DNA of 64,000 bases. It comes from Mannheimia sp. USDA-ARS-USMARC-1261 (GTDB lineage: Bacteria; Pseudomonadota; Gammaproteobacteria; Enterobacterales; Pasteurellaceae). The notes under the pieces are model-generated. The model was given only the letters and a program-made list of their open reading frames with translations, was not told where the DNA came from and did not search any database. Made by a program: the position numbers and the translations under genes. The stretch is from assembly GCF_000521605.1 (NCBI RefSeq), contig NZ_CP006942.1:434001-498000 (forward strand), read 5' to 3'. Of this stretch, positions 3,896 through 6,307 are shown in pieces (the first letter of the stretch is position 1; every line of letters begins with the position of its first letter).

Positions 3896-4027
3896 TTTAT
3901 ATTTGCCTAATCATTATTTTTAAAGGGAAAACTTGTCTATTTTACTACTCTTGGGGATGAATAATAGTAAAAAATTGATTTTCTGGGGCAAAAAATCAGC
4001 AAACAGGGTAAAAAGAGCAAAAAGCGT

Positions 4028-4055
4028 TTGACGAAAGAGCAAAAATCTCTATAAT
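4028..4055 (+). promoter_or_regulatory. Promoter of the tRNA-Val array
   Basis: A -35 TTGACG (4028-4033) and a perfect -10 TATAAT (4050-4055) are separated by 16 bp and end 16 bp before the first tRNA-Val. This fits a strong stable-RNA promoter driving all five genes. Confidence 0.8.
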
Positions 4056-4071
4056 TCACTTCCACAACAAC

Positions 4072-4147
4072 GGGCGATTAGCTCAGTTGGGAGAGCACCT
4101 CCCTTACAAGGAGGGGGTCACTGGTTCGAGACCGGTATCGCCCACCA
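4072..4147 (+). tRNA. tRNA-Val (TAC anticodon), copy 1
   Basis: 76 nt with encoded CCA. The anticodon arm CCTCC-CTTACAA-GGAGG gives anticodon TAC (UAC). It is the first of five near-identical genes. Confidence 0.97.
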
Positions 4148-4196
4148 CTTCAACTTTAAGTGTTCTGTTGTTGTAACAATCTAGTTATTTGGAAAC

Positions 4197-4272
4197 GGGC
4201 GATTAGCTCAGTTGGGAGAGCACCTCCCTTACAAGGAGGGGGTCACTGGTTCGAGACCGGTATCGCCCACCA
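4197..4272 (+). tRNA. tRNA-Val (TAC anticodon), copy 2
   Basis: Identical to copy 1 over 76 nt. The spacer after copy 1 and the spacer after copy 2 begin with the same roughly 22 bases, which points to tandem duplication. Confidence 0.97.
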
Positions 4273-4325
4273 CTTCAACTTTAAGTGTTCTGTTTTCAAA
4301 TTCCCTTTGATTTTAAGTCTCAAGT

Positions 4326-4401
4326 GGGCGATTAGCTCAGTTGGGAGAGCTCCTCCCTTACAAGGAGGGGGTCACTGGTTCGAGACCGGTATCGCCCACC
4401 A
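4326..4401 (+). tRNA. tRNA-Val (TAC anticodon), copy 3, position-26 variant
   Basis: Identical to the other copies except for one base. The nucleotide between the D arm and the anticodon arm (tRNA position 26, base 4351) is T where the others have A. The fold is otherwise unchanged. Confidence 0.95.
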
Positions 4402-4449
4402 CTTAAGACTAAAATCATAAACTTCAAATTACGATTATTCGTATCTGAA

Positions 4450-4525
4450 GGGCGATTAGCTCAGTTGGGAGAGCACCTCCCTTACAAGGAGGGGGTCACT
4501 GGTTCGAGACCGGTATCGCCCACCA
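4450..4525 (+). tRNA. tRNA-Val (TAC anticodon), copy 4
   Basis: 76 nt, identical to copy 1. With its 48-bp upstream spacer it forms a 124-bp unit that is repeated exactly in copy 5. Confidence 0.97.
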
Positions 4526-4573
4526 CTTAAGACTAAAATCATAAACTTCAAATTACGATTATTCGTATCTGAA

Positions 4574-4649
4574 GGGCGATTAGCTCAGTTGGGAGAGCAC
4601 CTCCCTTACAAGGAGGGGGTCACTGGTTCGAGACCGGTATCGCCCACCA
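4574..4649 (+). tRNA. tRNA-Val (TAC anticodon), copy 5
   Basis: 76 nt, identical to copy 1, and the last gene of the array. No strong terminator reading on the plus strand is obvious after it; the hairpin at 4677-4710 is T-rich on the opposite strand. Confidence 0.97.
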
Positions 4650-4676
4650 CTTTTCTTATTAATCAATTTTATAAAT

Positions 4677-4710
4677 AAAAAATCCCTTTCAAGCTTTAAC
4701 TCAAAAGGGA
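4677..4710 (-). terminator. Terminator ending the mltF / small-ORF transcript
   Basis: On the minus strand TCCCTTT and AAAGGGA form a stem around an A/T-rich loop and run into TTTTTT. It starts 6 bp after the stop codon of the 44-residue ORF at 4717-4851, so that ORF and mltF share a 3' end. Confidence 0.75.
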
Positions 4711-4716
4711 CGTATA

Positions 4717-4851
4717 TTACACTTCTTGTTGCATTTGCATAAACGCTTTTCTGCGTGAAGCAATGAGCCTTTTTCTATCTTTAATTTGTTTGATTTGGCG
4801 TGGACGTAGCTTCCTCGTTGGTAACGTTTTCTTTTTCTTCAATTTTCTCAT
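4717..4851 (-). CDS. Small highly basic protein overlapping the mltF 3' end (44 aa)
   Basis: An unrecognised gene. It has an ATG at 4851 preceded by a very strong ribosome binding site (AAAGGAGG, about 9-10 bp upstream). Its 44 codons are in a frame different from mltF and overlap it by 71 bp. The stop lies 6 bp from an intrinsic terminator. The peptide starts [19 protein letters not shown]; 18 of its 44 residues are Lys or Arg and only 2 are acidic. It has no membrane segment or cysteine. The composition suggests binding to RNA, ribosomes or anionic polymers, which is inference. The start signal and terminator position argue that it is real. Confidence 0.6.
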
Positions 4852-6307
4852 CAGACCTATCCTCCTTTTTTATATGATTATCAGATAAATTTTTTTGTTC
4901 TTGCTCAAGCTTTTTTTGCTCTTCAATTCGCTGATAATTGATGATACTGCCATAATAACGACGGATATTTTCAACGTATTGTAATGCTTCATAGCCTCTG
5001 GCATAACCATATTTCAGATTGGTATAATAACGTTTTTCAGCAAGTAGTGGCAGATTTTTCTTCACATCTAACCAATTATCAGGATCTCCGCCCAGTTGTT
5101 TGGTTAATCTACGGAGATCTAACAAATGTCCTAACCCCATATTATAAGCCGCTAAGCTATACCAAATTTTATCTTCTTGTGGAATAGTTTCTGGCATCTG
5201 TCTCATTAACATATGTAAATATTCAGAGCCAGCTTTTATACTTTGAGCAGGGTTTGTTCTATCTGAAATTTTCATTCTATCTGCGGTATCTTTTGTCAGC
5301 ATCATAATGCCACGTACACCTGTTGGTGAGGTAGCATTTGGATCCCAGTGAGATTCTTGATAGGCAATAGCAGCTAACATTTGCCATTCTAAATCGCCTT
5401 TATGTTCACGGAAAAGTGGCTCATATTTGGGGAGTACCGCTTTGATTGCTGCCAAATAGCTTTGAATATCAACATAATCAAATTTTTCCAGATGATTAAA
5501 ATATTTCTCCTCAATGCGTGAAATAAGTCCATTCTCTACAGAATCCGACATAAAATCCAATAGAGCTGATTGTAATTCGCTGTAGGAGCTATTTGCTAAA
5601 TACCATAACACAGGGTTTTCATCTGTCAAATCGAATCCTACCGCGAGATTAGGGTTAATATGCTGTACAGAAGAAATATCGACCGACATCGCGATAGTAT
5701 GTGGAATTTCGCCTTGAGCGACTTTTAATAATAGCTCTTCTTGGGTAAATTTATCTGAAATTTGCCACTTCAATTGAGGATTCTTTTGCTTTAGCTGATT
5801 GAGTATTGGAATAACCGCAGAACCAGTTGGAATAATGACATTTTCTTGCAAGTCTGAAAGTCGATATGGTCTTGTTGTCCCTTTTTTATACACTACTTGC
5901 CAAGAAGCTGAGTAATAAGATGGACCGATTTGAAAGGTTTCATTTAATTCCGGGTGATAGAGTAATCCTGCCGCAGCAATATCAATATCATTGTTTTTTA
6001 AGGCGTCAAATAATTTTTCGCTGCTATCGTAGCTTTTTACTTCAAGATTAACGTTTAGATATTGTGCAAAGGCAGTCGCTAAATCATATTCAATCCCACT
6101 TTTGCCTTCAGGACCGACAAAATAGGAAATCGGGTGGTTGATCATTCCCACTTTTAGCTTTTTACTCTGCTGAATTTGAGTGTAGTGGTTAGCTTCTGAA
6201 TGAATAATTTTTTGCCAAGGGAAAATCATATCCCAAGCCCAAAGTAAGAGAGCTATTGCGATAAAAAGGCGAGCAATTAATCCTTTCAATTTAAAATCCT
6301 CATTCAT
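4781..6307 (-). CDS. mltF: MltF, membrane-bound lytic murein transglycosylase F
   Basis: Cleaves peptidoglycan glycan strands at the inner face of the outer membrane. One N-terminal hydrophobic segment precedes a periplasmic binding-protein-like (SBP_bac_3) domain (about 50-270). The SLT lysozyme-like domain (about 290-450) has the catalytic glutamate in [21 protein letters not shown]. The tail is charged and repetitive (E/K-rich). Length is 508 against about 518 in E. coli. The annotated ATG has no clear Shine-Dalgarno. A TTG at 6289 preceded by GAGG at good spacing would give MKGLIARLF, closer to the family start, and may be the true start. The final 71 bp overlap the small basic ORF. Confidence 0.93.

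Follow-up and report, generated by a model that had tools for sequence, protein, structure and literature searches.

Does a 44-codon open reading frame (ORF) that runs across the 3′ end of mltF in a Mannheimia genome encode a protein, and what might such a protein do? The question arises on the minus strand of the 64,000-nucleotide stretch of DNA analyzed here (the window). A first-pass annotation had placed the ORF over the end of mltF, in a frame other than that of mltF, and had credited its peptide with 41% Lys plus Arg. The coordinates agree, with 71 nt shared between the two genes, and the computed composition is the same. The features of the locus are as follows.

4717–4851, minus strand: gene for a small basic protein of 44 amino acids with an ATG start, member of a conserved family (conservation and codon selection)
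4861–4868, minus strand: Shine-Dalgarno sequence AAAGGAGG, 9 nt 5′ of the ATG of the small gene
4781–6307, minus strand: mltF, membrane-bound lytic murein transglycosylase (NCBIfam NF008112, 643 bits)
4781–4851, minus strand: 71 nt shared by the mltF 3′ end and the small ORF in different frames (selection tracks the frame of the small ORF)
4682–4711, minus strand: terminator-like hairpin and T-run, 3′ of both mltF and the small gene (pattern match only)

Among the 148 ORFs of 40–60 amino acids in the window, the small ORF (41%) alone has a Lys plus Arg content of at least 30%. It is preceded by AAAAAAGGAGGATAGGTCTG-ATG, a 7-base match to the Shine-Dalgarno consensus as compared to 4 bases for mltF, which bears out the early impression that its start signal is the better of the two. 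A terminator-like stem does follow closely, as had been noted, but at a distance of 5 nt and not 6, because the last base of the stop codon is at 4717 and the stem begins at 4711. The site lies 3′ of both mltF and the small ORF, and a terminator common to the two, as first proposed, is plausible from the pattern match. We go no further than plausible because a pattern scan of positions 4000–5600 yields one such site, against a mean of 1.4 in shuffled sequences.

Conservation of the ORF beside mltF in relatives was the check that had been proposed for it, and the ORF was found directly behind mltF in 127 of 140 Pasteurellaceae genomes. The peptide alone recovered matches at an E-value of up to 1 in 22 of these genomes. 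mltF was present at 17 of the 22 loci; the other five (L014, L015, L017, L018, L020) were dropped as no mltF was found there. mltF itself was detected in 134 of the 140 genomes and was counted as absent from the six genomes without a match at an E-value of 1e-30. A basic ORF of 44–54 amino acids (at least 27% Lys plus Arg, with a choice of start codon that favoured Shine-Dalgarno sequences) was read on the same strand in the mltF 3′ flank of 126 genomes, and one further flank holds a small ORF that is broken by undetermined bases. A whole-genome search with a profile built from 64 member sequences (alignment A1) agrees with this composition-filtered reading. In 129 of 140 genomes it gave one clear match (E-value 1.4e-8 or better); this match immediately follows mltF in 127 genomes and lies elsewhere in two. 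By genus, the small gene is thereby placed in 39 of 43. The six genomes without mltF gave no match to the small protein or weak ones only (0.015 and 0.078, in two genomes), which we counted as chance. Five genomes, four from one genus and one other, retain mltF without the small gene, which is thus not universally needed. At the four loci of that one genus (L128, L133, L135, L141), the small gene is gone and an rph-like ORF, which we take to be rph, lies directly 3′ of mltF. A Shine-Dalgarno match of at least 4 bases precedes the small gene in 125 of 126 relatives, a figure somewhat inflated by the choice of start codon, as compared to 16% of 1142 control ATGs.

When an mltF alignment was used to search named genomes, 12 of the best 80 loci among the matches listed were from Pasteurellaceae, and the small gene was present in 11 of these 12: Haemophilus haemolyticus, Aggregatibacter actinomycetemcomitans, Histophilus somni, two Rodentibacter, Glaesserella australis, Bibersteinia trehalosi, Actinobacillus minor, two further Actinobacillus, and one Pasteurellaceae bacterium. 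It was absent from the Gallibacterium record. None of the 68 loci from outside the family (Yersinia, Serratia, Vibrio and others) held the small gene in flanks of up to 4 kb (best E-value 0.32). Two order-wide profile searches of 394 genomes each likewise revealed no convincing member outside Pasteurellaceae. The best two outsiders of one of these searches (G345, G428) overlap longer ORFs and were rejected, and the weaker outsiders of both searches had E-values of 0.002–0.1. The second search also finds YciY because its alignment contained YciY rows. Phages and plasmids gave no match for the member from Haemophilus haemolyticus.

Comparison of the relatives also puts the overlap with mltF in another light. 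The description of the ORF as overlapping the end of mltF holds for the window, where, as in this genus, the mltF frame runs into the small gene, but not for most relatives, in which the gene stands free behind mltF. Its ATG lies at or past the mltF stop codon in 102 of 126 relatives, and an overlap of at least 1 nt occurs in the other 24. C-terminal tails of mltF overlap the small gene by 11–71 nt in 19 of the 126 relatives. These observations suggest that mltF may have been extended into the small gene repeatedly. Purifying selection on the amino acid sequence of the small protein is strong: dN/dS ratios ranged from 0.03 to 0.19 in 16 groups that together comprise 93 of the 126 sequences. 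The suggestion to look for constraint in the frame of the small ORF was also followed up: among the seven genomes of the window's genus, whose pairs are not independent, pN/pS within the overlap was 0.11 in this frame, 2.12 in the mltF frame and 1.14 in the third frame. Outside the overlap, the small ORF again had a pN/pS of 0.11 in these seven genomes. These values show that it is the small protein that is maintained, with the mltF tail as a by-product of the mltF frame running into the gene. As the gene is mostly free-standing in relatives, the overlap is probably derived. Judged from these sequence comparisons, the small gene has evidently been overrun by the tail of mltF rather than the other way round. 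The locus is a clear case of a long gene extending its tail over a small gene of greater age, whereas such overlaps are usually read in the opposite sense.

The small gene is separable from mltF. In two genomes of one genus (G128 and G129), it is intact away from mltF, behind ruvC-, ruvA- and ruvB-like ORFs and facing a bamD-like gene.

L186, 4007–4156, minus strand: small gene parted from mltF, behind a ruvCAB-like cluster
L187, 3930–4079, plus strand: small gene parted from mltF, behind a ruvCAB-like cluster

A bamD-like ORF also faces the small gene in 12 of the 13 other genomes of this genus, the stretch from the 13th being too short. Elsewhere, the downstream neighbor varies by genus (dsbB-, hpf-, mutT-, rpsF- or gltX-like as judged from the translations), while the small gene is constant. 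A role as leader peptide for a fixed downstream gene is unlikely because this neighbor varies.

Members of the family have an isoelectric point of at least 11.4 (median 12.0), 28–42% Lys plus Arg and at most 8% Asp plus Glu. The predicted C-terminal helix follows the consensus RxxRIxxLKxxKxxIxxRHxLxF, and K5, R19, K27, R33, and F38 are conserved in at least 90% of 64 sequences. AlphaFold, run on 12 sequences, predicts a single helix at residues 17–43, with a pLDDT of 96–97 at residues 21–40, 66 at residues 1–10, and a pTM of 0.49. The protein is thus predicted to consist of a loose basic N-terminal tail and one confidently modeled helix. The amphipathicity of this helix was not above that of shuffled versions (mean z 0.17), and inspection of the sequence by eye revealed no signal or membrane stretch.

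The first-pass annotation had recognized no family, which holds for Pfam, PHROGs, and the PDB, where no consistent significant profile match was obtained (best 0.027 in a scan of 12 members), but YciY (NCBIfam NF033701) provides a weak lead. The window peptide alone gave nothing in family scans. All 64 members together gave scattered Pfam matches to eight families (best 0.0027) and no consistent family. A profile search against PDB chains retrieved none up to an E-value of 10, and a Foldseek structure search retrieved no chain. A ribosomal protein L20 fusion model was touched by one member (0.053). No description of the small gene was found in the parts of the open-access literature consulted; two transcriptome papers tabulate unannotated small ORFs without their sequences (PMC3262788, PMC4809551).

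We somewhat favor the view that the small gene encodes a cytoplasmic RNA- or ribosome-binding microprotein that is translated from the last cistron of the mltF transcript. The gene has a ribosome binding site to itself and would come last on this presumed transcript; its linkage to mltF probably reflects shared transcription. Its product of about 44–54 amino acids, a loose tail rich in Lys and Arg followed by one C-terminal helix, would most likely bind RNA through tail and helix together, with ribosomal RNA or the ribosome as the likeliest target by analogy. We infer all four elements of this proposal, i.e., cytoplasmic location, co-transcription with mltF, RNA binding, and the ribosome as target. 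A cytoplasmic location is suggested because no signal or membrane stretch was seen in the sequence, and binding of RNA or the ribosome, as the first-pass annotation had proposed, is plausible because of the isoelectric point of about 12, the few acidic residues and the single helix. The small basic ribosomal or ribosome-associated proteins bL34 and SRA are of a similar size class, with comparably high isoelectric points and Lys/Arg contents. Unlike these, the small family matched none of the PDB chains in a general profile search. It speaks against the proposal that RNA-binding families gave no convincing match, that neither profile nor structure search retrieved a PDB chain, that the helix is not unusually amphipathic, that five genomes retain mltF without the small gene, and that the basic charge also fits DNA or acidic membranes.

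The arguments from charge and helix apply equally to a small protein that binds DNA or the nucleoid. Yet no DNA-binding family was matched consistently, a winged-helix model being touched by 2 of 64 members (0.026), and nothing specific to DNA was seen, which makes this alternative unlikely. Still less probable, in our judgment, is a peptide at the membrane surface that aids or regulates MltF or envelope turnover. Such a partnership would be in keeping with the position next to mltF that the small gene occupies in 127 of the 129 genomes containing the two genes, and with the six genomes without mltF, which lack the small protein or have weak matches only. MltF acts outside the cytoplasm, however, and the small protein has no signal or transmembrane stretch by eye and no notably amphipathic helix; moreover, the small gene is intact away from mltF in two genomes, and mltF is kept without it in five.

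Two further readings would deprive the peptide of any function. A cis-acting leader or coupling ORF, with an irrelevant peptide, would be in keeping with the position at a gene boundary and with the strong Shine-Dalgarno sequence. The codon analysis contradicts this, as the amino acid sequence is under strong purifying selection; moreover, the ORF precedes a terminator-like site in the window, and the next long ORF lies on the other strand in most relatives and differs between genera; we regard such a role as very improbable. Overlap and short length would fit an ORF that arose by chance at the 3′ end of mltF, but this reading, to which we give practically no credence, is contradicted by conservation, dN/dS and the pN/pS values of the overlap. 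Conservation and codon-level selection exclude a chance ORF. It is close to certain that the small ORF is a genuine protein-coding gene.

A different kind of proposal, on ancestry and not in conflict with RNA binding, is that the small protein is a highly diverged YciY homologue re-sited behind mltF. YciY, from E. coli and related bacteria, is likewise short and basic and has a C-terminal pattern (SRR..RI..IR, then R..L.F) that bears some likeness to that of the small family. It differs in being about 57 amino acids long, with a conserved EVGRWRM start, a block that is missing in the small family; in one E. coli strain (MB06233), yciY lies between cls and kch, whereas the small gene lies behind mltF. 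Ribosome profiling and a Venus fusion showed that E. coli yciY is translated (PMC4909307); no functional study was found in the literature consulted on YciY. In the family of G156, taken for Enterobacteriaceae, 49 of 79 genomes contain YciY. A near-identity search with a yciY query from another genome matched 1 of 5426 E. coli genomes, which is no measure of yciY frequency.

The NF033701 model matched 3 of 64 members at an E-value of 0.1 or better (best 6.1e-4, 19.9 bits; eight members were rescanned for bits), and hhalign aligned the C-terminal halves of the two families over 32 columns with a pairwise P-value of 0.0078, but with a probability of 5%. None of 300 column-permuted YciY alignments reached the real score with the option -M 50 (best 15.10 vs. 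15.17), but 10 of 300 did with -M first. Scores of members on the YciY profile depend on residue order (mean 4.5 bits, as compared to 0.56 for shuffled and 0.80 for reversed sequences), and 26 of 107 members outscored all 50 of their own shuffles where about two would be expected, although related members are not independent. In the reverse test, 7 of 28 YciY sequences scored above all of their own shuffles, yet the best shuffle (13.7 bits) exceeded the best real YciY (6.6 bits). The curated cut-off of NF033701 (30 bits) was reached in none of the 140 family genomes, and at an E-value of up to 1 the model also matched 10 of 14 control genomes, one match among those listed (G086) being recognized as a member. 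Weak, stop-interrupted NF033701 matches in Pasteurellaceae were treated as chance. Weighing the differing gene context and the missing start block as well, we hold homology to YciY to be possible but somewhat doubtful.

It is tempting to go further and to unite YciY and a ribosome- or RNA-associated microprotein of nearly all Pasteurellaceae in one order-level superfamily, in which the N-terminal half was rebuilt and the gene re-sited behind a cell-wall lytic enzyme, but we consider this wider proposal rather unlikely. Through this analysis, 39 of the 43 genera sampled gain a conserved small gene, in a family to which Haemophilus, Aggregatibacter, Histophilus, and Rodentibacter belong, and the possible link to YciY is one that can be tested.

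Five tandem tRNA-Val(TAC) genes (4072–4649, plus strand) converge on the mltF unit in the window. Copies 3 and 4 are followed by identical spacers, and the tRNA of copy 3 has one changed base, which points to a recent duplication.
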